Source: Cladopsammia gracilis (lineage: Eukaryota > Cnidaria > Anthozoa > Scleractinia > Dendrophylliidae). From it: 64,000 nucleotides of DNA. The translations under genes were made by a program, and so were the position numbers. The notes below the pieces were generated by a model that was not told where the DNA came from, did no database searches, and saw only the letters and a program-made list of their open reading frames with translations. The stretch lies in NCBI GenBank assembly GCA_022457155.1, contig JAJGOT010001038.1:21001-85000 (forward strand). The letters run 5' to 3'. Below are positions 7,641-50,690 of the stretch, one piece after another (positions within the stretch are counted from its first letter, which is position 1; every line of letters starts with the position of its first letter).

Positions 7641-8476
7641 AAGGGTATTTTCGGCGCACTAGACACAATAATGAAATAAATTCCCTCAGTAACTTTGATT
7701 CTAGATTTCTTGCGCGCTTACACTAAACCTGTAATTTTCGAAACACTCTGTTTACATTCAAGTTGATTCAGGTCTGATGAACAAATGAGTTTGAAGTATA
7801 GGTAAGAAATTTAAAAAATGTAGCCTAATAATTCGGCTGAGATCGACAGCCGGTTTATTTAGGTCCTTTTCAGTCAACATTAAGGTCTTGTAGAATACTG
7901 AAAATATATATTTTTCTTAAACACTGAGTAATTCAGTGTACCAAATTCAATACATATACTTGAATACGGTTGCGACTTTAGACTACTCTGAGTTAATCAG
8001 TCTTCAACCCGGGAAGGGGGGGGGGGGCTCCCTATGATGGGCTATACGGGGATGCTCCGCCCGAAAGGGGTGCCATTTTTAGGCTGGAGGTATTTAAAAG
8101 GGAAGGGATTTCGCGAGTTGAATATAGAAAAGGGTAGGAAAAACTGTTATTAAGGTATTAAAATGGTCTTTCAAAATATCTCAAACAAACGCTAGTGGTA
8201 GTGCTAATGGTAACACTTGATGTTTTTCCCCGTACAAAACCCTGTTGAGCCTTGTTGAGTACCGCCCCTTCACCCCCCCTCCTGGGTCGGCAATGCCAAG
8301 ATCACCTTTTGTCTTACAAGTCAGGGATGTAAATATCATCACAAAAGGTTTTCCATCTCGTATATTTTCAAGTTCTACAATAAAGTAAACCAAAGACCGG
8401 AACTCCAAGCTAACCTTTATACACGAACAAATTTGTTTAACATCGTCAGTTCACTTGTGAGGAGCGGAGAGTGAAG
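7641..8476. promoter_or_regulatory. Upstream region of the collagen/EAR gene
   Basis: This holds the expected promoter and 5' leader of the gene starting at 8477. A guanine run (about 8013-8024) and a complementary-looking cytosine-rich part (about 8262-8285) suggest that much of 7990-8310 is an inserted repeat. CTTTATACACG near 8414-8424 could be a TATA-like element, but this was not established. Confidence 0.3.
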
Positions 8477-17400: not shown

Positions 17401-20400
17401 AACAGCGCGAGCGTATTCGCTAGTGCAAATTCCGTTAACCATCGTAAGCATAGTTTTTATTAGCTCATGAAAGACCATCTAACAGCGCAAACATATTCGC
17501 TCGTGAAAATTCCATTAAACAGTGTAAACGGACTCGCCGGCCCGTGAAAAATTCCATCTAACAACGCAAACATATTCGCTCGTGAAAGTTCCATACATAC
17601 ATACATATAACATATAACATATAACAGCGCAAGCATATTCGCTCCGGAAGGTTCGGTATAACAGCGTAAACATATTCGCTCGTGAAAGTTCCATTAAGCA
17701 TTGTAAACATATTCGCTCGTGATAATTCCATCTAACAGCGCAAACATTCGCACGTGAAAGTTCCATATAACAGCATAAACATACTCGCTCGTGGAAGTTC
17801 CGTATACCAGCGTAAACATATTCGCTCGTGAAAATTCCATTAAACTGTGCAAACATATTCGCTCGAAAAAATTTTATGATGAAAAGTACTATATAACAGC
17901 GAAAAACATATTCGCTCGTGAAAGTTTTATATAACAGCGTAAACATATTCGCTCGTGAAAATTCCATCCAACAGCGAAACATATTCGCTCGTGAAAGTTC
18001 CATATAACAGCGTAAACATATTCGCTCGTGGAAATTATCTAGCAGCGTAAACGTATTCGCTCGTGAAAATTCCATCCAACAGCGAAACATATTCGCTCGT
18101 GAAAATTCCATCTAACAGCGTAAACATATTCGCTCGTGAAAATTATTTAGCAGCGTAAACGTATTCGCTCGTGAAAATTCCATCCGACAGCGAAACATAT
18201 TCGCTCGTGAAAGTTCCAAATAACAGAGTAAACATATTCGCTCGTGGAAATTATCTAGCAGCGTAAACGTATTCGCTCGTGAAAATTCCATCCAACAGCG
18301 AAACATATTCGCTCGTGAAAATTCCATCTAACAGCGTAAACATATTCGCTCGTGAAAATTATTTAGCAGCGTAAACATATTCGCTCGTGAAAATTCCATC
18401 CAACAGCGAAACATATTCGCTCGTGAAAGTTCCATATAACAGCGTAAACATATTCGCTCGTGGAAATTATCTAGCAGCGTAAACGTATTCGCTCGTGAAA
18501 ATTCCATCCAACAGCGAAACATATTCGCTCGTGAAAATTCCATCTAACAGCGTAAACATATTCGCTCGTGAAAATTATTTAGCAGCGTAAACATATTCGC
18601 TCGTGAAAATTCCATCCAACAGCGAAACATATTCGCTCGTGAAAGTTCCATATAACAGCGTAAACATATTCGCTCGTGGAAATTATCTAGCAGCGTAAAC
18701 GTATTCGCTCGTGAAAATTCCATCCAACAGCGAAACATATTCGCTCGTGAAAATTCCATCTAACAGCGTAAACATATTCGCTCGTGAAAATTATTTAGCA
18801 GCGTAAACGTATTCGCTCGTGAAAATTCCATCCGACAGCGAAACATATTCGCTCGTGAAAGTTCCAAATAACAGAGTAAACATATTCGCTCGTGGAAATT
18901 ATCTAGCAGCGTAAACGTATTCGCTCGTGAAAATTCCATCCAACAGCGAAACATATTCGCTCGTGAAAATTCCATCTAACAGCGTAAACATATTCGCTCG
19001 TGAAAATTATTTAGCAGCGTAAACATATTCGCTCGTGAAAATTCCATCCAACAGCGAAACATATTCGCTCGTGAAAGTTCCATATAACAGCGTAAACATA
19101 TTCGCTCGTGGAAATTATCTAGCAGCGTAAACGTATTCGCTCGTGAAAATTCCATCCAACAGCGAAACATATTCGCTCGTGAAAATTCCATCTAACAGCG
19201 TAAACATATTCGCTCGTGAAAATTATTTAGCAGCGTAAACATATTCGCTCGTGAAAATTCCATCCAACAGCGAAACATATTCGCTCGTGAAAGTTCCATA
19301 TAACAGCGTAAACATATTCGCTCGTGGAAATTATCTAGCAGCGTAAACGTATTCGCTCGTGAAAATTCCATCCAACAGCGAAACATATTCGCTCGTGAAA
19401 ATTCCATCTAACAGCGTAAACATATTCGCTCGTGAAAATTATTTAGCAGCGTAAACGTATTCGCTCGTGAAAATTCCATCCGACAGCGAAACATATTCGC
19501 TCGTGAAAGTTCCAAATAACAGAGTAAACATATTCGCTCGTGGAAATTTTGTATAACAGCGTAAACATATTCGCTAGTGGAAGTTCCGCGCGTCTAACAC
19601 CGTAAACATATTCGCTAGTGGAAGTTCCATTAAACAGCGAAACATATTCGCTCGTGAAAATTTCACCTAACAGCGAAACATATTCGCTCGCGAAAATTCC
19701 ATCTAACAGCGTAAACATATTCGCTCGTGAAAATTATTTAGCAGCGTAAACGTATTCGCTCGTGAAAATTCCATCCAACAGCGAAACATATTCGCTCGTG
19801 AAAGTTCCATATAACAGCGTAAACATATTCGCTCGTGGAAATTATCTACACACTAAATTCAAAAGATCTGTTTCAGCCCCAAAAATGGGGCCGTTTCGGT
19901 GAGTAAAATACAGTGCTATTTTTGGGGCTAATTTAGCTCCGTTTTAGTAGAGCTGTTTTGGCCCTAACCACCAGAGTCGAAATAGCTCTATTGAAGGGGC
20001 TAAAAGTACCATATATAGGAGCTGTTTTGGAAAAATGGGGGGCTGTTTTGGTTTTTGAAAGGGCTGAAATAGCCGTTGAAAGGAACCAAAACAGCCCATT
20101 TTTGGCCAATTCGAACCCATCGTTCAGAGTTAAAATGGCCATCATTTTAGGGCTGATTTAGCCCTAAACTATCGCCAAAACAAGCCTACATTGCAGATCT
20201 GAATCAGTAGCAATGGGTTCGAAACGGTACCTATATCAGATCTGTTTTAGACCCTCGTTGGTCTAAAATGACTATACTGGAAGGGTTAAATCAGCTAAAA
20301 GTTGGAGCTGTTTTGGTTTTTAAAAGGGTTGAAATAGTTGTGAAAAGAGCCAAAACGACCCAATTTTAGCCATGGTTCAGAGTTAAAATGGCCATCATTT

Positions 20401-23400
20401 TTGGGCTGATTTAGCCCTAAACTATCGCCAAAACAAGCCTACATTACAGATCTGAATCAGTTGCATTGGGTTGGGAACATGGACCAACTTTTGTGGCCGA
20501 GTCAGCCCAGATTGCACCAAAATAAAACAACATTTTAGGTTTGAATCAGCATCATTGTACCAAATCGGTGGCACAACTACACATATATTAGGCATCGTCA
20601 AAATTTTCGAGCCATATCATAACCGTTAAAAATAATAACGCATTGATGTTGGTATAACAGGTAATGCAATTTAAATGCTGCAATAAATACACATGTACTT
20701 ATATAAGACATAAGTATTTTAACCAAAACGCAATATTTAATAATATTATCTTACACTGCCTTTCCAAGCTAAACAAGTAGCATCAATATTTCATGTTATT
20801 TTTAACAGCAAGGTAGAAAAATACTGTAAAAAATTGCTTTACCAATTAAGTATGTATGTAACTTGGATTAAATTTTAAAAAAATTCATGTTGATATCCCA
20901 AGACATACATACAGTCAAACCTCCGCTAACGAACACCTCCCATAGGCGGACACCTCCCATAAGTGGACACTTAGTCATGGTCCCAGCCACATACAAAACT
21001 ACATTTTTAACCTCCCATAAGCGGACACCTCTCTTAAACGGACACTTTTTCTGGTCCCGATGGTGTCCGTTTACGGGAGGTTCGACTGTACATGTAATAT
21101 ATCAGTGCAGTGTCAACAAGTTTATATTGTTATATATTGTTAATATAATATTGTTGTATTGTTTATGGTGCTGAAAAAGCCATCAATAAAACAATCTATC
21201 TAAAAAAAAAAACAGCTTAAAGGCCCAGTATCACCCATTCGGCTCTCGGTTGTTTGTTTTTGTTTTCAAACGACGAGCTCGCTTGTGATTGGCTCTTTCG
21301 GGAATTTTCGATTGCGTTAAATTCAATCGTAGACGCATTGGGCGCGCAATGCAATTTGGGTGACACTGGGCCTTTAAACTGAGCCAACACAATAACATAC
21401 TGACTAATGGAGTGAAATCCATGCTTCCCAATGTGCATTACAAGTAAACTATGGTAAAAACAAAAGGGCTGCAAAGTATGCAAGTTGATATGATAAAAGT
21501 CTTTGGAATCTGTTTGCCGATCTGCACATCATTTTCTCTACCTGTGCAGTGCCAAATTAACTGTCCTAAACAGAGTTAGATATATTCTTCTCAACCTGAA
21601 GCCATTCATTGTTTACCTTTGCAAAGAATGCGTGCAAGCATGCAAATTCCTCAATTATTAACCCTTTGAGCCCCAATAGTGAGTAGCATCAATCAGAAAG
21701 GTTATGACAATCAGGGATATGATATTTTCACAACTTCTCCCTGCCACTGGTAAAATAAATGTATACAATGAGAAGAAAGGATAATTTGTATTTTTATACA
21801 ATGTATTGGGGATGAAAGGGTTAAGGCAATGTAACATGGGCAACATTTATGAGCAAATTGTTGCAAAAGAAGTTGTTTGATTTTGCTGCCCATATTAGCC
21901 TGCAGAAACGCTTAAAAAGAATTATGCCTGTTCTGCAGGCTAGGCCATATTGACTTCACCTTCATAAGTCAGCAATGTCATTGAAATATGTGTTTACAGC
22001 CAACAATTTATGTCCACTGCCAATCAACAATAAGGATTGCTCCAGGAAAGAGAGGATGGCCTTGCTGTCTTTATACACTATATTGTATATGTAGAATGAT
22101 GACAGAAAGGCCACAATGCTGTCCACAATATTTCCTGAGGGATACGGCATATTTGCCCCTCACAAACAATATACAGTTGGTCTATGCAAAAATTATCTCC
22201 CACGGCAACAATCTGTGGCTGTACAAAGCCATGCAGCTCATCGTCTATTGCAGCTGTTCTCTACAAAGGAACAAATGAAAACAAAATACTTTAAAATTGA
22301 AGTACATAGTCACAATTGCATAATTTAAATGTATGTACCAGCGCAGGTACCAGGGTACCAACTGCAATGAAGAAAACTGGCAACTCAAAGTTTCACTTCA
22401 TACAACAACCATGAATGGCTATCTTGATTTTATGACTGCCTATTTCCTTTGTGGAGCTGACAACCTCAAAGCTTAATGACAGCCCTGATGTCCATGTACT
22501 CTAATGTTATCAATAGGTAACTAAGATATATGTATGCTTAAATTCTCAAATAAAAGTTCAAAAATTACATCCAATCACCAATAAACACTGTTGGACCCAA
22601 TCAAAAAAATTTACAAAATAATACAAAATAATAATTATTATTATTATTATTAATTATTATTAATTTGATCCAGAATATAACCCACTTTATGGATACCCAC
22701 CTGATACAGACATTCCGGCAACCTCGTTCCCAGGGCCTCTCTCTCTTCAGCTACGTCATCAACGGGAGAGACCCTGGTTGTGGCTGGTCACGTGCCACCC
22801 TGTGACAAAATATTTTCCATTAGGGTAGGGTCAATAACTACTTTCGTTGATCTTCTCGAACGAACAGAAGACAAAAGAAATGCCTGTCAAAGGGCTCATT
22901 CGTTCAAACACACAGGCATTTAACATTTTAATATGTACACCTTTGAAAGCCTCCAGTCACCTTCTAAATTCAACAAAGGTAAAAAGAGCCAGATTTTTAT
23001 TCATCCAGATTTGAATTCGATATTGCCTAAACAAAATATAACATCACACAAATCAGCACATCGTTGCTTTATAAAAATGATGCTTTTATTGACCAGAATG
23101 TAATAATTCTTGTAGTTTGTGTGCTGCATTCACGTCTAAATCTTAGCTTGCAGATAAAATATAAAACAGTGGCGGATCCAAGGGGGAGGGACAGGGGGTC
23201 TGTACCCCGTTTTTTGAATTTGTTTTTTTACAACTTGCTTGACACTGAAATTCTTGCATATCACTATTCAACTGGTTGATTGATTTTTTTTTTAATGAAA
23301 CGCGTGTTGCATTTTACCACTAAACTAATTTTAAATTGTGTTTTGGGTACCCTCTTATAGTCTGTTCGCAAAGTAGTACTGCCCGACTGGCGTTAACAGA

Positions 23401-26400
23401 AACACGTGCTGGTCCCTTTACAAGTAGAATTCATGTACATGGTAAGGGGTCAAGGAAACTGATGTTAAATCAGGATTATAATGTGCAACTGCGACTGAGG
23501 GAGAGGTGTGGAGAAGTTTGGACCCCCCCCCCCCCCCTAATAAAAAATTCCTGGATCTGGCTCTGTAAAATTTAATCTGTATAGTGTTGCCCAATGTAAT
23601 ATATTGATCTTGTCAACAACTCGGTGAATTGATTTCGATAAAATAAAGCATAAGGATAAAGATTACCTCTGTATTCACATACTTAGGAGCCTGATACTGG
23701 CTTAATGTTAAATTCAGCTCAGTTCGCGGCATTTGCCAGTGCGAAATATTGACCGTTGCGGCGTTTGTTTCCATCCCTGAAGAAACAAGGTTTTTTAACA
23801 TGCTTTCCGTCGCTCAGAAACGTTTTGGCTGAGTTGACAACAACATGAACGGGTTGAAGGTCAAAAATACTTGTGCGATAACGAAATGCTTGGCTATAAG
23901 CTTGTTCTGATGACCAGGAATAACTCAAAACACTTCTCCCCTTTCTCGTTAAGCGACAATTATATACATGTACTTTACTACCACTCCCCTAACAAACTTT
24001 TGTTAGCACCCAGTTTCTGGGAGCCACATGACCAGCCGCAACCAGGGTCTCTCCCGATGATGACGTAGCTGATGAGAGAGAGGCCCTGGGAACGAGGTTG
24101 ACATTCCGGAATTTGGAAATCATATGAAAATTGAAACGGGAATCAAGAGTTTGTAAATTGATTTGAAAGGTCACAATTGCAAAAATTGAGAGTTCAATTA
24201 ATAATTTATTGAAACACCACTAGAATGATAAACTTTAGATACTCACAGAAAACATTGTAAACACCTCCTGCTGACACCCCCTTCCCTTCTGCTTAAGTAC
24301 TTTGTTGAGTATGATCAGTACTGTTTGATCTATTACTCCTGTTGAAATAATACAAATCAGAATATTATTAATACTAAAGGCATACCTGTATGACACACAG
24401 GAAACCCTCAATTTCACATTTGCAATCAAATGATAATCAAAGTCAAACTCAAAAACTAATTTTAATCCTACCAGCGACTTATTTCAATGTCTTTGTTACT
24501 GTGTATTTCTGGCCAAACATAATAAATGAACAAAGAGGCTACAGTGGTCCAAAGGTAAGGGGTACAATCTATGATTGTTTTAAAGTTAAGTGATTAAGTC
24601 TGTGACCTTCAATGCAATAAAAATTATAAGACTGATGCTTAAAGCCTGGTTCACACTAGTGACATAACATAACAGCAAATGCAAAACACAACATTTATCA
24701 ATGTTTTGTCACCAGTGTGAACAACACAACCCAACAAAAAAAAAAGAAACATAATGACATAAACATAAGGACATAAGGATAAAAGTGATCTTTTCTTGAT
24801 GTTGTTATGTCCATGTTCTTATGTCATTATGTCAGTAGTGTGAACCAGGCTTAACAGGAGCCCAGTAGTGGTTTAATTGTATATTTTTTAATTACTATTT
24901 TTATGGTTGCCACAAAATGAACATGAAAATTGTTGGCATTATTTTTGGTGATCATAGTTTGGAATCTGAGCTGGAAAGAGAAGCAAAGAGAACCATACCC
25001 AGCTGCTTGAGGTGTCCAAAATTCTTTTATCTTTCAAACAAGGGTACGTCTGCACAATAAGCTTGGCAACATGTACTCTCTCTGCCTTACTGGGGTATCG
25101 TGTGTAATTGAGGATGGCTATACAAATGTCCCGAATGTACTCGTTTTGAAGGTTGACTGTCAGTTGGCCTGCCTTCAACCCATCTTCCACAGCTGCTGAA
25201 AACTAAGAAAAGGTGTCACGTTAAGAGACAGTACATTATTTTGTCTATTTGAATAAATATATTGTAGATCAAGCCTATCCTTAGCTGTCACTTTCAATAG
25301 GAAATAAACAATTTTTAAGAACTTATGCTGAAATATACCATGATAACCAAAATTGAAGGGGTGAGTGGAATAAAGCCCTAAGTGAATTCTGATCAACTGC
25401 TAGCTTCTCCTTCCAGTTTGTCTTGTCTATGCTTATATAACAAAAAAGGAGAACTTGGCTATAGATCACGAGTCACTTAGGGCCTTATCCCAAACTGGAA
25501 TAAGGCCTTCAGTGACTCCTGATCTGAAACCAAATTCTCCCTTTGTTGCATGAGCATACACAAGACAAACAAACTCAATCTGACCAACCATAGAGCGTGT
25601 ATTTCTTTGAACATTGTTATATACATTTTAAAAATATCATTCCTTAACTTTCTGTACTCACACGGGTTGGAAGTTGAAACTTAGAAAATCCAATCAGTCA
25701 CCTAAAAATTAACAACAAATAAATGATAGTGCGCTGTTTGTCTGCTATAACAATGGGAATAACACCTTTATTAATATTTACCATCAATTACATGTATCAT
25801 CATAAGACATCATTGCATGCATCCCAAACTAAACTGAGTAGTCCCTTTCCAACTACATTAAGTAAAGGACAATGAACCTTCTTGTTTAAACCATATTAAC
25901 TTGAATAATAGCACAGATTGATTATTTTTATGCAACCAAAAGTGCAAATTTATTTATGGGGGGCGGGGGTTAATTGAAGAGTAGCTATTTTATTCAAAGA
26001 AATATGGTATTCAAATTCCAAACAGCAAGAACACTATTACCCCTACATTTCTGCAACAAGGAAGGTTATCCACAATTTTTATTCATTATTTTGCCAGGAA
26101 ACTTAAGGAAAAATCAGCTTAGGATTTCATCTAATTTAGTACAACCTACAGGATGCCAGATTATCACTGTCTGGGTAAAAGCCTATGTGTGTTTATGATA
26201 CATGTAGCAATACTGAATGTAATTTACACATTAGTAATAGCCTCAATATCCCTTATCAATACCTCAAATGCAGGTCTTTTATACCTGCTCATGCAGGTCA
26301 TAGCTAATCTTTCAATCAAGTCTGATTTCAAGTGTTTAGCAATTTTGCTAGCCATATAACCAAAGCTGTATACATCTGATGCTGGTCCAGGGACATATTC

Positions 26401-29400
26401 ACCTTCATACTGTGCTGGATCAATATGTTTATAACATGACTTATACCTTGCTCGTTCATTTACGGGAATGTTTTTTACCTTAGTATCCTTAATTTGACAT
26501 GCTTTATTGAAATCTATTATCTTAGGTTGCCATACTCCAGAGCTCGAAAGTGCAATCAAAATATTATCTCCTTTAATATCATTGTGTACAATTCCTTTTG
26601 AATGGAGACAATAAAATCCCTGACAACATTGCATTAAAATTTGAAACCAGGACTTTTCAGTGATGCAAACATCTACTGATTGAAGAGCTCTAAAAATTGT
26701 AAGTGGATGCATGCCCCCATCAGACACTCCACAAACCTACAATACAAGCAATGATATTATGTGTCTCCCCCAAAACAACACCAAAAACAAAGGGAAATGC
26801 TGGATGAGAAATTTGAGCAAGAAGGGAGGCTTCTTGAACAACAGCTTCTTTTGATGTCAATTGATTATAATGCTTAACTGCAACTCTAACAGATTCTCCA
26901 CTAACTGCCAACGACATCAGTTTACAAATGCCAAACCTTCCTTGACCTAGAACAATTTCATTATCATGACTGTCTTTCACAACTGACAGTTGATCTTGCT
27001 TGACTTCTCTAACAAAATTTGATTTAACAGCATCTTTTTCTTTCAGAGTTTGAATCTTTCTTTCCAACAATTTAACCATTTTTTGGAAGAATTGACAGCC
27101 TTTCATTTCATTAATTGTAGCTATCATTTCTGTCATTGTTTTTTGTCTAACTATGAGCCTTGATTTCTTTTTTAAAGATCTTTGCCTTTTCCGCCTTTCC
27201 TTTCTCTTCATTTGAACTTTTAACTTCTACAACAAAAGCACATTATTTTATTTCAGGACAAATGCTATAATAATGTGAATAAAAAAATGTCACAATCCTG
27301 TATTTTTTTTTAAAAAATAAAATCTTACATATTGCATCTGTTGTAACACGATAAGCAATGCCTTTGACAGGGGACACCTCAGCGTAAAGCTTCATTCCCA
27401 ACTGACATATACCTCTATCATAGTACAGCATAGCAACAAAACCAAAACATACAAAAAGATGAAATGCAAATTAATTATAATCTTGAATATAGAGCGTATG
27501 CACTCACGTGGCAAGCAGCTATGCAAATTTATTGGAACAAAAGAAAGTGTTAACATAAGAAAAGCGTTCAAATCCCACAGGATTGTTTTGGTACACCAAC
27601 ATGGCCGCCGTTCTATTGTTTTGGTACACCAATATGGCCGCCGTGACGTCATGTGCATACGCTCTATTGCATCTGTTGTAACATGATAAGCAATGCTTTT
27701 AAGAGGGGACACCTCAGCGTAAAGCTTCATTCCCAACTGGCATATACCTCGATCATAGTACAGCATAGCAACAAAACCAAAACATACAAAAAGATGAAAT
27801 AGAAATTGATTATAGTCTTGAATATTGCGTCTGTAGTAACATGATAAGCAATGCTTTTAAGAGGGGACACCTCAGCGTAAAGCTTCATTCCCAACTGGCA
27901 TATACCTTGACCATAGTACAGCATAGCAACAAAACCAAAACATGCAAAAAGATGAAATAGAAATTGAATATAGTCTTGAATATTGCATCTGTTGTAACAT
28001 GATGAGCAATGCTTTTAAGAGGGGACACCTCAGCGTAAAGCTTCATTCCCAACTGGCATATACCTTGATCATAGTACAGCATAGCAACAAAACCAAAACA
28101 TGCAAAAAGATGAAATAGAAATTGAATATAGTCTTGAATATTGCATCTGTTGTAACATGATGAGCAATGCTTTTAAGAGGGGACACCTCAGCGTAAAGCT
28201 TCATTCCCAACTGGCATATACCTTGATCATAGTACAGCATAGCAACAAAACCAAAACATACAAAAAGATGAAATAAAAATTGATCATAATATTTGCAACT
28301 ATTGTAACATGGCAGACTGGATGCAGTCAGCAGTACTTTTATTGTATTCTGTATAATTTGTATTGCAGAAACTTAACAGTTTTCTTCAAGAATGTACAGT
28401 ACATGTACAAGTTTGGACAAATCTATATTTTCTTATGGCATGTCTCATCTGTTTTCTTGACAGGAATGATACCGATATCCTAGCTTTTTGTTGCCGGTAC
28501 TGTTACTTTAAAGATTGCAACTCAGGTGTCTAAACATTAATTTTGTCAGCTTTTTTGAATTACATTTACTACAGTGTATTCTGACATTGCAAAAGGAGAG
28601 GGGGAACGGGGTGTCCCAATGTAAAATGTCCTAGTCAGTGATTTACTGTTAAGTTTTATAATACACATTGGAATTTCACTAACTTTTCCCTTTGGTGTTT
28701 CCTTTCTTGTGGACACCTTCTCTGCATCACACTTTCCATCTCCATCCTGTAACAAATTTAAACCAAAAAATGAACCTGGTGTTACAGTGATTTGTGACAC
28801 ATGTATCACTAGCGATCTGTGTATCACCAGCAGGGAAACACAAAACACTGACACTATGTATCCAAGCCTTCAATGGCATCACAAAAATGAAAAAGGTAGA
28901 TTCAATACAATATTATGAATGCCTAAGAATTTGGGCTTTGCAGGGGGGGGGGGGGGGGATACAAATATCTCTAATAATAATGTGTTTAGGTAAACACACC
29001 TAAAAATATCAACGTTCAAAGTCAGGGGGGCACCCCTCTGTGGGGTGTCCCAATGTAAAATGTCCTAGTGATTTACTGTTAAGTTATATAATACACTTAA
29101 AGCATTGGAATTTCACTAACTTTTCCCTTTGGTGTTTCCTTTCTTGTGACCACCTTCTCTGCATCACACTTTCCATCTCCATCCTGGAACAAATTTAAAC
29201 AAAAAAAATGAACCTGGTGTTACAGTGATTTGTGACACATGTATCACTGGCGATCTGTGTATCACCAGCAGGGAAACACAAACCACTGACACTATGTATC
29301 CAAGCCTTCAATGGCATCACAAAAATGAAAAAGGTAGAGTCAATACATATGAATGCCTAAGAATTTGGGCTTTGGAGGTGGGGGGATACAAATATCTCTA

Positions 29401-32400
29401 ATAATATGTGTTTTGGTAAACACACCTCTAAATATATCAACGTTCAAAGTCTGCCCCCCCCCCCCCCCCCCCCCCCCCGTCCTCTCCACCCCTCTTTTGA
29501 CATCTTACCGGACTCGAAGTTGATGCAGCCTCATCGCCTGCCGATTTCGGGGATTCACTAGCGGCCGATTTTTTGCTCACTCTCACATCTTCCGAAATGG
29601 TTGGGAAAGAAAAAGAAAATCACAAGTTACTTTCAGTGCCGACTATGAATCGCTTGCACGAAAACAGCTGAAACAAATCAAATAAAGCACTTAAGAAACA
29701 AAATGTTTTCTAATTTGCTATAAGGAAACTGGATTTGAAAATGCATCCGTTCTTTCGCTTGTAAACCGCTCAAAAAATGGCATAAAGTGAAGGAAATCTC
29801 GAGACAAATTCGTTAAGATCCTCCCGCCAGCTCCTCCCGCCACAAATCAGTAAAACGTGACATGCGCATTTGGTGTATGAGCATCCGCGGGATTATGGGA
29901 CGGGTTCGCTTCCAGACCCTTTCGTTCATAGCTATTGGCGGTGGCGGGAAATAACATCAGGCACGGAACTGAGATCTCACCTGGATGTCCTCCCTCTCTT
30001 CTACAAGAACTCCCACAAGGCGCTTGAATTTTGATCTTTCTTTAAAGTTTGGGAAATAAAAACGACACTCCTTTTCATCCCGATACAGTGAGACCACATC
30101 CTCGCCGTCAAGCTGATCATCTAAAAGGATGTAAGAATGTTCAAGACAAATTATCACGGAGCACGTGGGCTTTTACGAACTATCGAAAGCGAAAGCATGC
30201 ACGATCACTTACCTGCAATTCTGTCGATGGTTTCAACAGAAAATTTGTTTCCTGTCATCCAGGACTTGACTTCTGATGAATCAAATGTCTCATCGAAAGA
30301 TCTCTCCATTTTAGTTTGTAATAAGAACTGGTTGAAACGAGCTTTGAACGTCATCTCCTTCCAGAACGGACTCGGTTCAGCGATCAGTTTTATACATGTA
30401 GTTTCTTGACACAGTTTCCAAAACAAACGATTGTTGGCTGCTACAAGTCTGAACAGCATGCCAAGTTTCATTTGAAAATGGTTTATCTTTGAAGCAAAAA
30501 ACGCGTTTTCCTGGGTCTGGCAGTTATAATTTGCGAGAGTGTGGAAGTTAAAATTCCTTAGTTCCTCCACGTTGGATAGATTTCCGCTGTGCAGCAACGT
30601 CTGTAGACTCATTTTAACCTCGAAAGTTGTTTTGTTTACCCGTTGCGCAGAGTCTGTCCGTTGCGGTTATCCTTACATAACAAACTTGGTTATCTTAGGT
30701 ATATTAAACACCTCTGGATGACCAGGTTTAGAAACCTGATGGTCTATCCTTTGTAGGGAACAATTTAACAAGGCGTACTTTTACATATAGCGCAACACAT
30801 TTATGGGGATTTGATAACCTTTTTAATGATTATTTTCATGTTCAGTCTGGTCAATAAAGATCAATCCTTGGAAAGATAGTGGTGCATGCATGTGTGCGTG
30901 AGGACTTACTGTATCAGTTTATTAGTGTTGAACTTAATAAAATAGACATTGCAGCGAAATTAGTTTTATTATATGTAGTCGTCCAGGACGATCACCCAGA
31001 GAGTAGATGTGTCGGTGATTTATATTCCGGCACTGATTCAGTACTATCAAGTTCCAAAATGGCCCTTAAGTTAAGGACCATTTTGTGTTCAATAGAAGTG
31101 GCTCTACCAGTCTGGGTCAAAACGGGTCTATTGATAAGGGCCAATATGTACCTTAGAGCTGAATTGATTTCTGGAAGTGGACTGAAACGGTTTTTGATGG
31201 GGCTGAAATGGTTTTTGATGAGGCTGATTCAGACCAATTTCTCAAAATAGCCCCACAAAGGGCCGAATCAGCTCCAGGGGTCATAGAGCTGAATCGACAC
31301 TTTGGGGCTGAAACAGTTCTTTTGAATTTAGTGTGTAGCAGCGTAAACGTATTCGCTCGTGAAAAATTCCATCCAACAGCGAAACATATTCGCTCGTGAA
31401 AATTCCATCTAACAGCGTAAACATATTCGCTCGTGAAAATTATTTAGCAGCGTAAACGTATTCGCTCGTGAAAATTCCATCCGACAGCGAAACATATTCG
31501 CTCGGGAAAGTTCCAAATAAGGCCTACGGCAAACGTCGAACTTCCCATGTGCCGAATCTAATGCAAATGAGCAAAATCTATTGTTCTTGCTCATTTGAAT
31601 TAGATTCGGCACATGTTAAGTTCGACGTTTGCCCTAGGCCTAACAGAGTAAACATATTCGCTCGTGGAAAATTTTGTATAACAGCGTAAACATATTCGCT
31701 AGTGGAAGTTCCGCGCGTCTAACAGCGTAAACATATTCGCTAGTGGAAGTTCCATTAAACAGCGGAAACATATTCGCTCGTGAAAGTTCCATATAACAGC
31801 GTAAACATGTTCGCTTGCGAAAGTTCCAATAAACAACGTAAGCAAATTCGCTCGTGAAAATTCCATCCAACAACCCAAAAAATAACCCGGTTAAAATAAC
31901 TCGGAAAAAAGTGAAATAACCGAGTTAATTTTATGAGCGGCCGCACTTTAAAACGTGAGAGATAATGTTATAATTTGCTGGCGAGAGCTACACAAAACAA
32001 TACGAATAATGAGCGAAAACAATACCTCTGCACGTGCATTTTTATATTGTTATTGCTAGTAAAAATTCCATAACAGCGCAAACACATTCGCTCAGTGAAA
32101 CAATTTCATTACACAGCGTGAACATATGAGCTAATGAAAAAAATTGTACGAAACAAGGCCAAAAGTAAGAAGCTACAGGAATGCGAGCGAAAAACTCCAA
32201 GCTAGTAACAAACTTAAAGGCTTGCGAACCACAAAGATAGTACAATTCCCGGCCTAACATAGAGAAAAGCGAACGGCACACTTACCGGGAATAACTGGGA
32301 CATGTGCTATGGTGAAAACAAAACAAAAACCGTGGCGCAGCGATGATACAGGACTGAGGGCTTGAACGTACTTAACTAATCCTCCCCGAGCGCCATGAAA

Positions 32401-35400
32401 GGACTTTTGAGGTTATGAAGGACTGATCGCACCAGAATAAGATTATATAGCCAACAACGTGCCGGAGGTTGCGCAACCCATTCCCACGCTACTATTCTTG
32501 GGGTTTTAAGTTACGTAATATGTTGAACTTCGCCATTGTTTGAAGGAATCCCCGGTGAGAATAATTTTATGTTTTAAGGGAGAGAAGGGTGAACCAATGC
32601 AGGCATAGGAGGAAACAGCGGCAATGTTATAATTAATTATTTTATGTTTTGAAGGGAGAGAAGGGTGAACCAGGCATAGGAGGAAACAGTGGCAATGTTA
32701 TAATTAATTATTTTATGTTTTAAGGGAGAGAAGGGTGAACCAGGCATAGGAGGAAACAGCGACAATGTTATAATTAATTATTTTATGTTTTAAGGGAGAG
32801 AAGGGTGAACCAGGTATTGGAGGAAACAGTGACAATGTTATAATTATTTTATGTTTTAAGGGAGAGAAGGGTGAACCAGGTATAGGAGGAAACAGTGGCA
32901 ATGTTATAATTAATTATTTTGTTTTAAGGGAGAGAAGGTAGAACCAGGCATGGGAGGAAACAGTGGCAATGTTATAATTAATTATTTTATGTTTTGAGGG
33001 AGAGAAGGGTGAACCAGGCATAGGAGGAAACAGTGGCAATGTTATAATTAATTATTTTATGTTTTAAGGGAGAGAAGGGTGAACCAGGCATGGGAGGAAA
33101 CAGTGGCAATGTTATAATTAATTATTTTATGTTTTAAGGGAGAGAAGGGTGAACCATGCAGTCATAGGAGGAAACAGTGGCAATGTTATAATTAATTATT
33201 TTATGTTTTAAGGGAGAGAAGGGTGAACCAGGCATAGGAGGAAACAGCGACAATGTTATAATTAATTATTTTATGTTTTAAGGGAGAGAAGGGTGAACCA
33301 GGTATAGGAGGAAACAGTGGCAATGTTATAATTAATTATTTTATGTTTTAAGGGAGAGAAGGTAGAACCAGGCATGGGAGGAAACAGTGGCAATGTTATA
33401 ATTAATTATTTTATGTTTTGAGGGAGAGAAGGGTGAACCAGGCATAGGAGGAAACAGTGGCAATGTTATAATTAATTATTTTATGTTTTAAGGGAGAAAA
33501 GGGTGAACCAGGCATAGGAGGAAACAGTGGCAATGTTATAATTAATTATTTTATGTTTTAAGGGAGAGAAGGGTGAACCAGGCATGGGAGGAAACAGTGG
33601 CAATGTTATAATTAATTATTTTATGTTTTAAGGGAGAGAAGGGTGAACCATGCAGTCATAGGAGGAAACAGTGGCAATGTTATAATTAATTATTTTATGT
33701 TTTAAGGGAGAGAAGGGTGAACCAGGCATAGGAGGAAACAGCGACAATGTTATAATTAATTATTTTATGTTTTAAGGGAGAGAAGGGTGAACCAGGCATA
33801 GGAGGAAACAGTGGCAATGTTATAATTAATTATTTTATGTTTTAAGGGAGAGAAGGGTGAACCAGGCATAGGAGGAAACAGTGGCAATGTTATAATTAAT
33901 TATTTTATGTTTTAAGGGAGAGAAGGGTGAACCAGGTATAGGAGGAAACAGTGACAATGTTATAATTAATTATTTTATGTTTTAAGGGAGAGAAGGGTGA
34001 ACCAGTTATAGGAGGAAACAGTGGCAATGTTATATAATTAATTATTTTATGTTTTAAGGGAGAGAAGGGTGAACCAGGCATGGGAGGAAACAGTGGCAAT
34101 GTTATATAATTAATTATTTTATGTTTTAAGGGAGAGAAGGGTGAACCATGCAGTCATAGGAGGAAACAGTGGCAATGTTATAATTAATTATTTTATGTTT
34201 TAAGGGAGAGAAGGGTGAACCAGGTATAGGAGGAAACAGTGACAATGTTATAATTAATTATTTTATGTTTTAAGGGAGAGAAGGGTGAACCAGTTATAGG
34301 AGGAAAAAGTGGCAATGTTATAATTAATTATTTTATGTTTTAAGGGAGAGAAGGGTGAACCAGTTATAGGAGGAAACAGTGGCAATGTTATATAATTAAT
34401 TATTTTATGTTTTAAGGGAGAGAAGGGTGAACCAGGCATGGGAGGAAACAGTGGCAATGTTATATAATTAATTATTTTATGTTTTAAGGGAGAGAAGGGT
34501 GAACCAGGCATGGGAGGAAACAGTGGCAATGTTATAATTAATTATTTTATGTTTTAAGGGAGAGAAGGGTGAACCATGCAGTCATAGGAGGAAACAGTGG
34601 CAATGTTATAATTAATTATTTTATGTTTTAAGGGAGAGAAGGGTGAACCAGGCATAGGAGGAAACAGCGACAATGTTATAATTAATTATTTTATGTTTTA
34701 AGGGAGAGAAGGGTGAACCAGGTATAGGAGGAAACAGTGCCAATGTTATAATTAATTATTTTATGTTTTAAGGGAGAGAAGGGTGAACCAGGTATAGGAG
34801 GAAACAGTGGCAATGTTATAATTAATTATTTTATGTTTTAAGGGAGAGAAGGTAGAACCAGGCATGGGAGGAAACAGTGGCAATGTTATAATTAATTATT
34901 TTATGTTTTGAGGGAGAGAAGGGTGAACCAGGCATAGGAGGAAACAGTGGCAATGTTATAATTAATTATTTTATGTTTTAAGGGAGAAAAGGGTGAACCT
35001 GTCTGAGGCATAGGAGGAAACAGTGGCAATGTTATAATTAATTATTTTATGTTTTAAGGGAGAGAAGGGTGAACCAGGCATAGGAGAAAACAGTGGCAAT
35101 GTTATAATTAATTATTTTATGTTTTAAGGGAGAGAAGGGTGAACCAGGCATAGGAGGAAACAGTGGCAATGTTATAATTAATTATTTTATGTTTTGAGGG
35201 AGAGAAGGGTGAACCAGGCATAGGAGGAAACAGTGGCAATGTTATAATTAATTATTTTATGTTTTAAGGGAGAGAAGGGTGAACCAGGCATGGGAGGAAA
35301 CAGTGGCAATGTTATAATTAATTATTTTATGTTTTAAGGGAGAGAAGGGTGAACCAGGCATAGGAGGAAACAGTGGCAATGTTATAATTAATTATTTTAT

Positions 35401-38400
35401 GTTTTAAGGGAGAGAAGGGTGAACCAGGCATGGGAGGAAACAGTGGCAATGTTATAATTAATTATTTTATGTTTTAAGGGAGAGAAGGGTGAACCATGCA
35501 GTCATAGGAGGAAACAGTGGCAATGTTATAATTAATTATTTTATGTTTTAAGGGAGAGAAGGGTGAACCAGGCATAGGAGGAAACAGCGACAATGTTATA
35601 ATTAATTATTTTATGTTTTAAGGGAGAGAAGGGTGAACCAGGTATAGGAGGAAACAGTGACAATGTTATAACTAATTATTTTATGTTTTAAGGGAGAGAA
35701 GGGTGAACCAGGTATAGGAGGAAACAGTGGCAATGTTGTAATTAATTATTTTATGTTTTAAGGGAGAGAAGGTAGAACCAGGCATGGGAGGAAACAGTGG
35801 CAATGTTATAATTAATTATTTTATGTTTTGAGGGAGAGAAGGGTGAACCAGGCATAGGAGGAAACAGTGGCAATGTTATAATTAATTATTTTATGTTTTA
35901 AGGGAGAAAAGGGTGAACCAGGCATAGTAGGAAACAGTGGCAATGTTATAATTAATTATTTTATGTTTTAAGGGAGAGAAGGGTGAACCAGGCATAGGAG
36001 GAAAAAGTGGCAATGTTATTCTTAATTATTTTTGTTTTAAGGGAGAGAAGGGTGAACCAGGCATAGGAGGAAACAGTGCATGGCAATGTTATAATTAATT
36101 ATTTTATGTTTTAAGGGAGAGAAGGGTGAACCAGGTATAGGAGGAAACAGTGGCAATGTTGTAATTAATTATTTTATGTTTTAAGGGAGAGAAGGTAGAA
36201 CCAGGCATGGGAGGAAACAGTGGCAATGTTATAATTAATTATTTTATGTTTTGAGGGAGAGAAGGGTGAACCAGGCATAGGAGGAAACAGTGGCAATGTT
36301 AGCATAAAAGTAAGCACTGTGATTTGCATTTTTTTTAAAAAGACAAGTAAAAAAAAAATAAAGAAATTAATCTTCCTAACCCAAGAAGAAATTTTAAACT
36401 TTCATTCCTATTCAGTTTAGTGTACTTTTGTTAAAAAGGAGAAATTGTTTTTTTAAATGTTGTGCTAATACATGTATCAATACTGCAGGTAGTAAACAAT
36501 ATAAAATTCCAAGAATTATTCAATAATTTTTTAATATTATCCTTTCTGGGAATTCTAATGTATAGGATCAAAAAACTGCACTGGTCTGTTTTCTGTTTTA
36601 ATATAATTATAGTGGTGTTATCACAGGCATCTAACCCAGCTCCTAGCATGAGAAACCTCATATTGAGTGTCTTTTTGAGATCAGTTTGTAATGACTTTGG
36701 TGTGTCATGTCATGTCACTTAGGCATAACATACACTGTAACAGCAGCCCTTCGTGTGAGAAGCCATGTTGCATACATTTGTAACAGTGCAAATTATACAG
36801 GTTTATATGGGAATTTAATGAACATATTATTGGGAACAGTATAGGAAATAAAAACACAATAAAAATGCCTTACCTTACCCCCAATGTATTACTTGTTTCT
36901 GCTTGGGCCATTTTGGAGTGATTCCAGAGAGTTTTAGTTTCACGGATTTCTCTCTTATATAAAAAGTAGAGAAATCAGTGAAACTAAATAGTAAAACACT
37001 TACACAAAGCCAACTGTTATACGGTTTCTCACACTAGGAGCTAGTGTGACCTGTGCTTTTCTTCCTTAAAATATTTCAAGCTAATAGAATGCTTCATAAT
37101 TTAATTTATATTTGAGCTCAACATGGTGAATCAGTGCAAGAAAAATTAAAGTGTTTTTAAACATGACCCTGAAGATGACTTCTGCTCAGGCTTTCAAAAT
37201 GTCAGTCATTGTTAACAACAACAATAACAAAAGATCACACTACATTTTTTCTTTAATGTCGTTAATAAATGTGCCGTAAATTTTACCTTTTTTCTGAGGG
37301 CGAGAAAGGATCTCCTGGACACAAAGGACCACATGGAGAAAAAGGACAACAAGGACAGAAAGGAATGCCTGGAACATGTGATGCAAAGGTAATTTTATTG
37401 CAAACAACTACCAATACCACTTTATTTACCTGCTTGTTAAACTATACCTGTTGCAAAAATATGTATTAGAGGACCTTTCATACTCATAAAGAAATTATGC
37501 AAGTCATTTAAAGTTGGCCTGCCTGGTTTCTTTCCCAAGATTGCCATGGGTGTGTGGGACTTCGGGTTGCAAGACAGAGTAAAGAGCTTTTGTTTTCATG
37601 CTCTCAGGAAAAAACAAACTCAGATGGCGCACAAAGCAATATCTCTATGTTTTGTAATTTTCGTCTTTGCTACTCAACTTTTTAAGTGCATGCACTTTTT
37701 ATTAAAAAAGATATCAAAGAATGGAATGACTTTTGTCAAGCAAGGAGAAGAAACTGAGAGATTTAAGTCAAATAAAGGCAGAAAAAAAAAACCTGTCAAT
37801 ACACCGAATGCAAATATCACGGCCAATTTAGTATTCTTTATGTTAATTAGCCTGACTGGCCTCGTTAGCATGTGCAAAGTTCAAAGGATTGTTTACTCTA
37901 AAATGAGGCTAGTCAGGCTAATTAACATACATATAAAAGAATGATAAATCGGCCGCCATATTTGCATTCGGTGTATGATATATAACAGTTTGTCTTTAAA
38001 ATAGTCATGATTCAAAAATTAACAATTTTTTTTATTGTACTGTATTGCTCTTTATTCATTAATTTTTCAGGGCTCATCTTCCAGTAAACCAGTATGTTGT
38101 GCGCTCGGTAAGAACATTTTACATCTTTAACATTGTTTTAAGTTATCTAATCACTTTACAGAACCGAACGTTTCGGTCATGACTAAGATCTGGATGAAAT
38201 TGTTTATCATTTTCCTGAACTTTTATTTGTGACACGTTTTTTGTTACTAATTTCAAGCATTGCTGAACCTAATTATAAGTTTTCTGCAGTGATTGCACTG
38301 TAAATAATTCATAATCTAATATATTTATAAAATGTCACATTCGAGCAGGTTAGACTATACAAGTTGCATATACAATGAACATCCTAGGAAGTTAATTTTG

Positions 38401-47640: not shown

Positions 47641-50415
47641 TTTTTTTTTCTTTATTTTTTTTTATTATTTTTTTTAATTTACCACTTATTTTATTTACAA
47701 TGTTCATACTGATAAATACTAAAAGTATAATCTCGATTCCAACAAGTAAATACAGTCCAAGTGGTGTTAAGTATTTGAAATTTAAGTAAAAACAACAACA
47801 ACAACAACAACAACAACAAAAAAAAAGGAACTAGGAACTAGGAACTAGATTATTACAGAAATTATAATATGAAAAGAGAGAAAAAATTGCAAGCTTAACT
47901 ATGTAGAAGACAATTACTGTTAAATAAAATGTTTCCAATTCCTATTAAAATTGTCAATGGTTTTGCTTTTGTATGCTATTTGTTGTAAAATTTCGAGTTT
48001 GCTTTTAAGTAGAGAAGGGAAGCAGTCAAAGGGAACATCATCGCTGTCTTGGATAGTTGACAGGTTTCAGAGTCACATATCTTCATGCGGAAAAGCGAAT
48101 ATCTAGTTGGAAGTATATTGTGAATAATTTTATATTGAAAAATTTCAAGTTTTGTTTCGAGCGTGGTAGCAAGGGGAGGTTATAAACACTCTTTAAGCAT
48201 TCTTTCGAGAAGCCATATCGTAATAATTTTTGTTCAGCAGTGGGAGGTTGAAACTGGTGGTCTCTAATTGCTGCATAGACAACACGGGTGGTGAAATCTT
48301 TGGGCATTGGACGTTGTTGTAACACATTGTCATTTTCGATCGGGATTTTTGTTCTTTTAATTTCGCGTCTCCAGTTTCGTGGAATGGCGCTTATTAAACC
48401 GTAGTAAGTTGTAAATGGCACGCGAAGTTGGAAGGCTGTTTGAAATTTGTCATATGTCAAAAAGTTAAGATTTTCGTCAAGCAGGTCTTTGATGTATGTG
48501 ATTCCAAATTGATGCCATTGTTTAAAGTAGATCATGTGTTTGTTTATCAGAATGTCTTTATTATTCTAGATGATTTCACTTTGTTTATATTTATTTTCTT
48601 CTGAGATGATAAGTTTGTTTTCTTGCCAGTTCTTTAGTATTTCAAGATAGAAGGGTGGTACATCATTCAGATCCAGTAATTTAATGTTGTAGTTACAATT
48701 GAGTAAGAAAGGAAGACCACCATATTCCTTAAAGAAATGTTCGATTAAAGTTCTCCAGGAGGAGTTGGAGTTTTGTCGTATTCTTTGAATCCAGGCAATT
48801 TTGAGCGCGGTGTTCATTATTTCAAAGTCGATCATTTTTAAGCCACCTTTATTTTTTTCGCCAATCACTGTCGTTTTCTTAATTTTTGGGGGTTTGCCTT
48901 CCCAAATAAAATTAAAAATCATGCTGTTGATAGCGTTTGAAAACTTTGTGGGTAAAGTAAGATTGGAGCTGTTGAAAATTAACTTAGATAAGGCTAGGGT
49001 TTTGACGATATTTATTCTGCCGATTAAAGTAAGTTTCCTATTTTTCCAGATATTTAAAATCTTTTCCATATTTCGCAATTTTTCGTCGAAATTGAGCTTA
49101 TCGGCCTTACTATTGTCGTATGAAAAGAAAACACCTAATGTGCAGATGGGATCGATGGGCCAGTTGAAATTAAAAGGGGTTTCACGTTTATCTTTCCACT
49201 TGCCAAGCCACATAGCTTCGGTTTTGGACGTGTTGACTTCTAAGCCAGAAACAACTTTAAATTTATTTAGCAGCTCAATTAAATGGCCGACAGATTCTGT
49301 GTCACTAAGAAACACTGTGGTATCATCTGTATACATGGTCGTTTTAATTTCGAGATTTCCTATCGTTATTCCTTTAATGTGAGCGTGACTTTTAATGGCT
49401 CTCGCGAGGAGGTCCAGGCCAATGACAAAAAGGAGACCTGATAGTGGACAACCTTGTCTCACACCACGCTTTAAGGAAAAGAAATGAGAAGCGTGGCCGT
49501 TGTTAAGAACACAGCTAATAATATTGGAGTATATAGTCCTAAACCATTGTAGAAATTCCGGTCCAAAATTAAAGAGCAGGAGAGCTTTCTCCAAGTACTT
49601 CCACTCAATGGTATCAAAAGCTTTTCGGAAATCCACGAAAACAGCGATGCCGGGCGAATTTTGTTTTTCCAAGTAGAACATTAGATCTTGTATTAATCGA
49701 ATGTTTTCTCCGATGTAACGTCCTTTTACGTAGCCGGTTTGGTCGGGATTTATAATTTTGGGTAATACTTTGTCTAAGCGATTTGCCAATACTTTAGTAA
49801 GAATTTTGTAGTCGACATTCAAAAGAGATATCGGTCTAAGGTTTTCAAGGATGGTATTATCTTTGTACTTTTTTTGGAATAAGAGAAATTATTCCTCGCC
49901 GCTGGGATATCGACATGGAACCGTTTGTGAACGCGTAATTAAAACTTTTAACGATTAGCGATTTTAGTTCTGGCCAGAAATATTTTAAAAATTCAGATGT
50001 CAGGCCGTCAGCCCCGGGGTTTTGGCAGCAGCAAAATCTTTTAAAGCTTTAAAAGCTTCAATCTCTGTAATTAAACCTTCACACGAGGCTTGATCGTAGT
50101 CGGACAAAGTCGGGATGTTGTTTGGATTAAAGAATACACCGTTATCTGGGTTGTCGGCACAATAAGATTCTTGTGATTCGTATAAAGATTTGTAAAACTT
50201 ACTTTGTTCTTCTAAAATATCGAGCTGGTTCCGGTTAGTGATAACAGTACCATTTTTAAGCTTTAGTTTGGAAATAACTTTTTTAGAGTGGTTTCGTTTT
50301 TCAAGGTTTAAAAAGTATTTGTTGTTACGCTCTCCTTGTTCGTGCCATCTTGTCCGGCGTCTAAGAATGGTGCCACGAGTTTTGAGTGCCGTTATTTTTT
50401 CGAGACGAGCTCGAA
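47641..50415 (-). mobile_element. 5'-truncated L1/Tx1-type retrotransposon with 15-bp target duplication
   Basis: GGTACTGTTTATTAT occurs at 47626-47640 and 50416-50430; removing the insert restores a normal ~108-bp repeat unit. On the minus strand the 3' end is at 47641 (A-rich tail seen as T-rich sequence on the plus strand), preceded by a (CAA)n-like tract at about 47789-47820. The 5' part is cut off inside the region between endonuclease and reverse transcriptase. The segment upstream of 49822 still encodes recognisable pieces (e.g. LTSEFLKYFWPELKSLI, NTILENLRPISLL) in shifted frames. Confidence 0.93.
48083..49822 (-). pseudogene. Reverse transcriptase of the L1/Tx1-type element
   Basis: Frame 49822-48566 (418 aa) reads NVDYKILTKVLANRLDKVLP, NPDQTGYVKGRYIGENIRLI, FVDFRKAFDTIEW, RGVRQGCPLSGLLF, MYTDDTTVFLSDTES and LGVFFSYD, the ordered motifs of an L1-type reverse transcriptase. 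The catalytic box reads YTDD, keeping both Asp residues. A TAG codon at 48566-48568 interrupts it, and the same frame continues from 48535 to 48083 with WHQFGITYIKDLLDENLNFL, the usual post-RT domain. After 48083 the frame is lost. One stop codon and 5' truncation make it inactive. Confidence 0.92.
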
Positions 50416-50690
50416 GGTACTGTTTATTATGCTGTACAAGGTGGTTCTAACTTTTGTGTCTGTGGATGAAATCCTAAAGTGTGACCATTCAGAGTAAAGC
50501 TATTGAGCAGTACTTTTCCTGTGGTACTGTTTATTATGCTGTACAAGGTGGTTCTAACTTTTGTGTCTGTGGATGAAATCCTAAAGTGTGATCATTCAAA
50601 TACAAGCTATCGAGGATTCCTTTTTGTGTTACTATTTATTATGCTGTACAAGATGGTTATATCTTTTGATTCTAGATTAAATTCTGGTTC
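50416..50690. repeat. ~108-bp repeat array, right part
   Basis: Starts with the right target duplication and continues for about two and a half units (GCTGTACAAGGTGGTTCTAA, GTGACCATTCAGAGTAAAGC and so on) before fading at about 50690. Confidence 0.85.

Follow-up and report, generated by a model that had tools for sequence, protein, structure and literature searches.

Structure of the element

The window, a 64,000-nucleotide stretch of a contig from the coral Cladopsammia gracilis, carries an 11.5-kb element at 19849-31335 that lies between two TA dinucleotides and is bounded by terminal inverted repeats, the left and right ends being identical at 34 of their 35 outer bases. A sequence-only reading of this DNA had held that the ends, the duplication and an intact empty site in satellite DNA define the element exactly, and all three bear this out: the flanks joined with one TA form a 60-mer that is matched by seven satellite units in the window, with one mismatch each. 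The 36-bp ends of that reading are indeed inverted but come to 35 bp, the 36th base being mismatched. Along the window the features are:

19847..19848, target-site duplication, left copy (TA); sequence, empty site, matching duplications at 12 other distinct insertions
19849..19883, + strand, left terminal inverted repeat, 35 bp, starting CACACTAAATTCAAAAGA; 34/35 as in the right end, boundary the same in other copies
19884..20568, subterminal repeat field of the left side, with GRGCTGWWW motifs facing both ways and a 109-bp duplicated block; motif counts, self-comparison
20914..21089, MITE-like nested stretch with inverted repeats; element positions 1065-1241 form a gap in the comparison of copies, inverted ends by eye
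21965..22275, - strand, remains of 'SAMD3-like' C-terminal exon with a stop and a frameshift inside; tblastn to P0018/P0019
22718..24100, nested stretch with inverted ends of about 80 bp; self-comparison
24253..24342, - strand, 'SAMD3-like' exon matching P0018 318-347; tblastn
24999..25202, - strand, 'SAMD3-like' exon matching P0018 76-143; tblastn
26224..27226, - strand, kinase exon, coiled coil and protein-kinase domain with a frameshift and a stop inside; Pfam scan, comparison of copies
27330..28283, intronic array, unit about 158 bp, split by the next stretch; self-comparison
27490..27665, nested inverted-repeat stretch; gap 7642-7817 of the element, ends inspected
28684..28746, - strand, linker exon, duplicated second copy; splice sites and frame read, 438-bp duplication
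29121..29183, - strand, linker exon, first copy; sequence reading
29509..29588, - strand, linker exon (DVRVSKKSAASE...), by eye like the linker of P0012 and P0019
29981..30120, - strand, second half of a weak SAM-like exon pair; sequence reading, sub-cut-off SAM match
30213..30612, - strand, first exon, with an ATG and a GTAAGT donor at its end; sequence reading
31036..31300, right subterminal repeat field; motif counts
31301..31335, - strand, right terminal inverted repeat, 35 bp; comparison with the left end
31336..31337, target-site duplication, right copy (TA); sequence, empty site

The subterminal repeats of the element are of the GGGCTGAAA type. As the sequence-only reading had noted, such repeats lie on both sides, dense at the ends and rare in the interior: G[G/A]GCTG[A/T]3 is found nine times in the left 720 bp and five times in the right 300 bp, against a single occurrence in the 10,467-bp interior and two in the 52,513 bp outside the element. 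With the outer 36 bp of each end omitted, the counts of eight (left) and four (right) were reached in 0 of 1000 first-order Markov samples. The repeats are putative transposase-binding sites. The nested stretch at 20914..21089 is missing from copies L010, L017 and L023, and that at 27490..27665 has no match in any of the other 16 long copies in the comparison.

Copies across the genome

The search for further copies with the same ends, proposed with the sequence-only reading, finds the element's ends at 22 loci and both ends at 16 of them; 14 of these measure 10.2-12.9 kb, one 3.4 kb and one 29.9 kb. The concern that there might be no second copy thus falls away, with 38 CACAC-type ends (36 exact, two with one mismatch) at the 22 loci and none for a reversed-pattern control. 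The right end alone, at an identity of at least 92%, is found at 20 places, all within these loci, and 37 of the 38 long-family termini begin with CAC, the exception being the left end of C1076. Common left flanks make C71/C1151 and C658/C1353 probably two haplotypes of one insertion each.

Of the 14 distinct insertions with both ends read, 13 lie in a perfect 2-bp duplication; the flanks of L023 do not match. The duplicated sequence is TA at seven insertions, CA at three, TG at two and AA at one; 'TA-flanked', as the element had been described, is hence right for the window copy but not for the family. Divergence among copies is 0-2%, in the left end and in the kinase region alike, and three different insertions, C1151, C546 and C427, show no difference across some 951 bp at their left ends. 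The family is young, its spread lying 0-2% divergence in the past.

Kinase-free short elements with related ends are present in the genome. Related CACTG...CAGTG elements of 303-304 bp have a matching 2-bp duplication in three of the four read (TG, TA, TG), the flanks of the fourth being unmatched (CA versus TG), while L027-L029 (453-474 bp), each with TG to the left and right, have one flank in common and are counted as one site.

The cargo genes

Kinase sequence is present at 19 of the 22 family loci. To the question whether the kinase is always inside, the answer is mostly yes; one copy that lacks it, L025, sits between a proper TA duplication. Among the 120 of 234 candidates scored, all 19 close kinase matches in the genome lie within the family, those beyond it are at most 37% identical, and the assembly yielded no parental gene for the kinase; a recent capture would lead one to expect such a gene, so the failure to find it counts against one. 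Intact relatives are found elsewhere, P0001 being 91% and P0002-P0008 47-64% identical. Viral contigs hold no exact match to the element's ends and one distant kinase locus (26%).

One kinase stop is common to 16 of the 17 long copies read (15 distinct insertions), and all 17 have a deletion in the coiled coil relative to P0001. L023 lacks the stop and keeps an open kinase frame of 291 codons. Variant codons of the kinase are nonsynonymous and synonymous at 13:8, too few to show neutrality. 'SAMD3-like' is a provisional label, the SAM_3 score being 17.1 bits against a Pfam cut-off of 22.6; residues 144-317 of this protein, its middle exons, were undetected in the element copies, and the best locus outside the family, C1059, is 55% identical to P0018. 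Searched as protein, the first exon pair gave no significant match among 15 candidates. P0012, a kinase protein, and P0019, a SAMD3-like one, have a similar linker ahead of different C-terminal halves.

Because nearly all of the long copies read have the stop in common, all have the coiled-coil deletion and the middle SAMD3-like exons go undetected, the cargo genes look like passengers that were defective before the family spread. The kinase in particular looks like passenger DNA here, given the inactivating stop and the properly inserted, kinase-free L025, which for this genome largely settles in favour of cargo the earlier question of whether it is cargo or part of the mobility system. Of the 'intron-containing kinase and SAMD3-like genes' described from the sequence, the spliced cargo is real, but it consists largely of pseudogenes.

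Transposase search

The region 19000-32500 holds 72 stop-to-stop ORFs of at least 60 codons, 62 of which touch the element. A Pfam scan of all 62, two in part, finds no transposase domain in the window copy, consistent with the earlier remark that none was visible; apart from the kinase, matches are weak and all under their cut-offs. CACTA-type transposase matches exist elsewhere in the genome, Transposase_21 (PF02992) giving 56 matches with 55 above cut-off, but the full-length relative that had been looked for, with a DDE transposase and the same ends, was not found. The ends listed, among them 100 of a set of 173, are all more than 20 kb from each of the 56 PF02992 places, the closest approach being 21 kb on C124. 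No such ends occur in the 3.4-kb surroundings of eight of the 56 (L046-L053), and by eye no transposase ORF was recognised at the CACTG-type loci L042-L045, L054 and L055 or at the right-end-like locus L056. A motif cluster beside a transposase at L051 looks like an unrelated MITE and was rejected as a partner.

Classification and mechanism

Multiple short subterminal repeats at both ends are a trait of plant CACTA elements. The coral element combines such repeats (nine and five motifs against one in the interior) with 5'-CAC...GTG-3' termini and, at 13 of 14 distinct insertions, a duplication of the 2-3 bp size and variable sequence of CACTA/EnSpm (CMC) elements, a combination that fits this group. 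Published CACTA elements have invariable CAC/GTG termini and 2-bp duplications, according to passages of PMC6004678, and the rule for the CMCT clade excerpted from PMC12730594 is CA..TG ends with a 2-5 bp duplication. Against a plain CACTA assignment, the long-family termini are CACAC, not CACTA or CACTG, CACTG being the start of the related short elements. Pack-TIR or Pack-TYPE elements hold host-gene-like sequence between their ends and no transposase, as here; a parental gene elsewhere, also expected of them, was not found, the matches outside the family being the distant kinases and C1059 described above.

We read the element as a large non-autonomous 'Pack-CACTA' of CACTA/EnSpm type, moved in trans with gene passengers aboard, at a probability of roughly 0.84. 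A CACTA transposase made elsewhere in the genome would bind the ends and the subterminal repeats, excise the element and insert it, duplicating 2 bp. The cargo would stem from capture, an ancestor having engulfed an intron-containing gene with linker exons, kinase and 'SAMD3-like' C-terminus. The copy that founded the present family would already have lost the middle SAMD3-like exons and borne the kinase deletion, and nearly all copies would descend from a founder that also bore the kinase stop.

Two proteins from one transcript are known from En/Spm, and it is conceivable, if unlikely, that the kinase/SAMD3-like unit is an accessory gene of the element's own, the copies here being defective descendants of relatives in which one alternatively spliced transcript gives the kinase and a regulatory protein aiding mobility. 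The element might belong to a CACTA lineage of cnidarians in which functional members encode, again in one such transcript, a kinase and a SAM-like partner as equipment of their own, the kinase taking part in transposition or controlling it. Only defective derivatives would be left in this genome, which would explain why the kinase was found nowhere outside the element; this is a doubtful proposition. The confinement of all 19 close kinase loci to the family, the intact relatives elsewhere, the similar linker of P0012 and P0019 and the open frame of L023 speak for an accessory gene, whereas both halves were already damaged when the family spread, L025 inserted with a proper duplication while lacking the kinase and SAMD3-like halves alike, and short kinase-free elements with related ends exist.

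Beside the Pack-CACTA reading, a Tc1/mariner or pogo-like element, suggested by TA at seven of 13 matched sites, is most improbable, since CA, TG and AA at the other six contradict a TA-specific duplication, the termini are CAC...GTG and no such transposase domain occurs in the 62 ORFs. Hardly any weight falls on an assembly inversion artefact, which the sequence-only reading had considered, or on segmental duplication merely resembling mobility: C71/C1151, C658/C1353 and the short L027-L029 do share flanks, but other pairs among 20 left flanks reach at most 60% identity when 200 bp are compared ungapped, every long insertion with both ends read, except L023, has a duplication of its own, and an empty site exists.

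Comparison with known elements and significance

Elements of this kind are known; so large a one in so many copies is unusual in animals. In the papers listed on CACTA/EnSpm, SAMD3 and transposons, neither titles nor abstract openings name it. As far as the excerpt of PMC1947982 describes it, the soybean CACTA element Tgm-Express1 is likewise filled with intron-containing gene fragments, but it measures 5.7 kb and holds five unrelated captured host gene fragments, whereas the 11.5-kb coral element has mainly one apparent gene unit and about 20 insertions, and a search of the assembly found no parental gene for its kinase. Animal Pack-TIRs, in passages of PMC8277862, are non-autonomous TIR elements that duplicate internal gene sequence, some of which have transposed repeatedly and have distinct duplications. 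The 370 reported there include 323 hAT or TcMariner elements, four of the total are described as multicopy, and the example from a frog has 291 bp of cargo and sits on three chromosomes. In the coral, by contrast, the remains of a multi-exon gene lie between CACTA-like ends at 19 loci. The CMC/CACTA MITEs and ENS1_Cis of the excerpted PMC6004678 differ from the long family with CACAC termini, the MITEs being short and free of cargo. An accessory enzyme gene is also carried by TET/JBP-bearing fungal DNA transposons, including EnSpm, of the same broad clade, but in the parts of PMC12730594 describing them these encode a transposase and the gene is proposed to help escape silencing, while the coral element shows no transposase and its enzyme gene is defective.

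The element keeps the remains of a gene whose host locus was not found in the assembly, and annotation pipelines would probably call its copies kinase genes. A young family has taken a 10-13 kb block with remains of an intron-containing gene to about 20 sites, and large gene capture and amplification by a CACTA-like element, known in soybean, thus seems to occur in animals too.

Ends, copies and target sites

The segment at 19849-31335 of the window, in contig C401 of the 877.8-Mb genome, is a genuine element. Its terminal inverted repeats are identical at 34 of 35 bases, TA stands on either side, and its joined flanks share 59 of 60 bases with each of seven satellite units of the window, bearing out the exact ends, duplication and satellite empty site claimed in the sequence-only reading. 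The subterminal motif GRGCTGWWW is more than 100 times denser at the ends of this copy than in its interior.

Searching the genome with the 32-bp end, allowing up to two mismatches and using the reversed sequence as control, gives 98 places against 0 for the control. Sorted by hand, these comprise 38 ends of the long, CACAC-type family (36 exact, two with one mismatch) and 60 others, 56 of which are CACTG. The long-type ends fall at 22 loci, 16 of them two-ended, so that the further copies to be sought through the element ends do exist; 14 of the 16 measure 10.2-12.9 kb, one 3.4 kb (L025, internally deleted) and one 29.9 kb. A 296-bp right-end query matches 20 places at 92% or more, every one among the 22 loci, while a left-end query (first 252 bp) gives at least 74 matches, including at least 18 with an identity of 98% or higher, both lower bounds from 40 of 221 candidates scored. 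The 20 left-end places retrieved, taken together with the window copy, comprise 17 long copies bearing kinase sequence, the deleted copy L025 and the three short elements L027-L029. CACTG ends, where read, mostly enclose elements of 303-304 bp. Other related elements are L027-L029, of 453-474 bp, and L055, a CACTG-ended element of 3.9 kb with TA at both flanks and other repeats inside.

The 29.9-kb copy in contig C1353 carries an insert that starts with inverted-repeat-like sequence; judged by eye from roughly 1 kb of this copy alone (L024, from about 8949; the copy in C658 is L021), the insert also has a reverse-strand frame resembling a polinton/Maverick type-B DNA polymerase. At C268:111358-129044, a 6,481-bp spacing occurs three times, carrying related element ends in a single orientation, as if an element end had joined a large tandem unit.

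Right ends were retrieved for 12 other long copies, those of L017, L025 and the window copy being already readable, and L011 and L020 are one insertion. A perfect 2-bp duplication is present in 13 of 14 distinct insertions (TA 7, CA 3, TG 2, AA 1), the sole exception being the mismatched L023; the count covers loci read on both flanks, which leaves out C124, C186, C658, C761, C779, C1285 and C1353. Because all four dinucleotides occur among the matched insertions, the target-site duplication of the long family is 2 bp without fixed sequence, and the description "TA-flanked" holds for the window copy but not for the family. In the 303-304-bp elements the duplications match in three of four cases and differ in one.

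The long family is young: copies diverge by up to about 2%, alike at the left end and the kinase region, and L011, L018 and L019 lie at different places yet are identical across about 951 bp.

Cargo genes

Features of the element:
Minus strand, first exon with start codon
Minus strand, SAM-like exon pair, weak
Minus strand, linker exons
Minus strand, kinase exon (Pkinase, E 2.4e-13)
Minus strand, exons of a protein with intact relatives P0018 and P0019

The kinase relative P0012 and the SAMD3-like P0019, compared by eye, have a similar linker followed by different C-terminal halves; these two database proteins suggest that in other species a single, alternatively spliced gene may encode both. 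The search for the middle SAMD3-like exons found none in the element copies. An element intron (27330-28283) holds an array of an approximately 158-bp unit, its layout varying among copies.

The window kinase is interrupted by one frameshift and one stop. Kinase sequence is present in 17 long copies, the window copy included; since the flanks are common to L011/L020 and to L021/L024, these represent 15 distinct insertions. The identical stop recurs in 16 of the 17, and a coiled-coil deletion relative to the kinase relative P0001 in all of them; L023 lacks the stop and retains a 291-codon frame. These common defects are older than the family's spread. Kinase variant codons (13 nonsynonymous, 8 synonymous) prove nothing about constraint, and the cargo is not visibly maintained in the long family. 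The kinase had been proposed as either cargo or part of the mobility system; stop and deletion favour cargo over machinery, and in this genome it looks like a passenger.

All kinase matches above 80% identity, on 19 contigs, fall at loci with long-family ends, 17 directly read and two (C124, C1285) assigned by coordinates. The kinase is thus inside at 19 of 22 end-bearing loci, though not always, L025 being without it; the other three include C186 and C779, whose insides were left out. Beyond the family, kinase matches reach at most 37% identity among the 120 of 234 candidates scored, and no parental gene was found among these in an assembly that may be incomplete. The closest SAMD3-like locus beyond the family is in C1059. 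Open frames 33-34% identical to the SAMD3-like C-terminus, with near-equal scores, occur at many loci, in C302, C961, C1295, C408, C483, C629, C1017 and C1341, and may represent a further gene family that is mobile or has expanded.

Transposase and mechanism

None of the 62 open reading frames of at least 60 codons in the window copy contains a transposase domain, in agreement with the earlier remark that none is visible. Candidates for a partner exist, since the genome holds 56 Transposase_21 matches, 55 exceeding the cut-off and 12 stop-free within open frames of at least 800 codons. The mechanism with most support is cut-and-paste in trans, in which a CACTA-type transposase would recognise the element ends, and probably also the subterminal repeats, and move the long elements. 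None of the 56 places lies within 20 kb of the ends listed (100 of 173 in one search), and the surroundings of eight (3.4 kb each) show no link to long-family ends; the suggested DDE-transposase relative with the same ends was therefore not found among them. This link is the chief gap in the mechanism, and placement in the CACTA family is probable, if incomplete without the partner transposase.

Other features of the window

A tandem array at 32560-36301 has about 53 copies of a 70-bp unit, with 17 occurrences of an exact 35-base core. The unit contains an acceptor-like site, then an in-frame collagen-like stretch (GEKGEPGIGGNS), and looks as if a collagen-gene intron and mini-exon had turned satellite. 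Minus-strand frames at 48086-50446 resemble, by eye, a non-LTR retrotransposon reverse transcriptase.

Comparison with known systems

CACTA elements such as the tunicate ENS1_Cis are described with CAC...GTG termini and 2-bp duplications (PMC6004678), and one account of the wider clade gives CA..TG termini and duplications of 2-5 bp (PMC12730594). In soybean, a CACTA element is known to have captured fragments of spliced genes (PMC1947982). Multicopy animal Pack-TIRs are presented as rare, the example given being small (PMC8277862); the giant-transposon review cites one survey with 0 Pack-MULEs above 7 kb, and lower transposition efficiency with cargo above 6 kb (PMC6431247). Against that survey and those rare Pack-TIRs, the long family is large (mostly 10.2-12.9 kb) and unusually multicopy; it is therefore of a kind already known, and unusual for animals in size and copy number.
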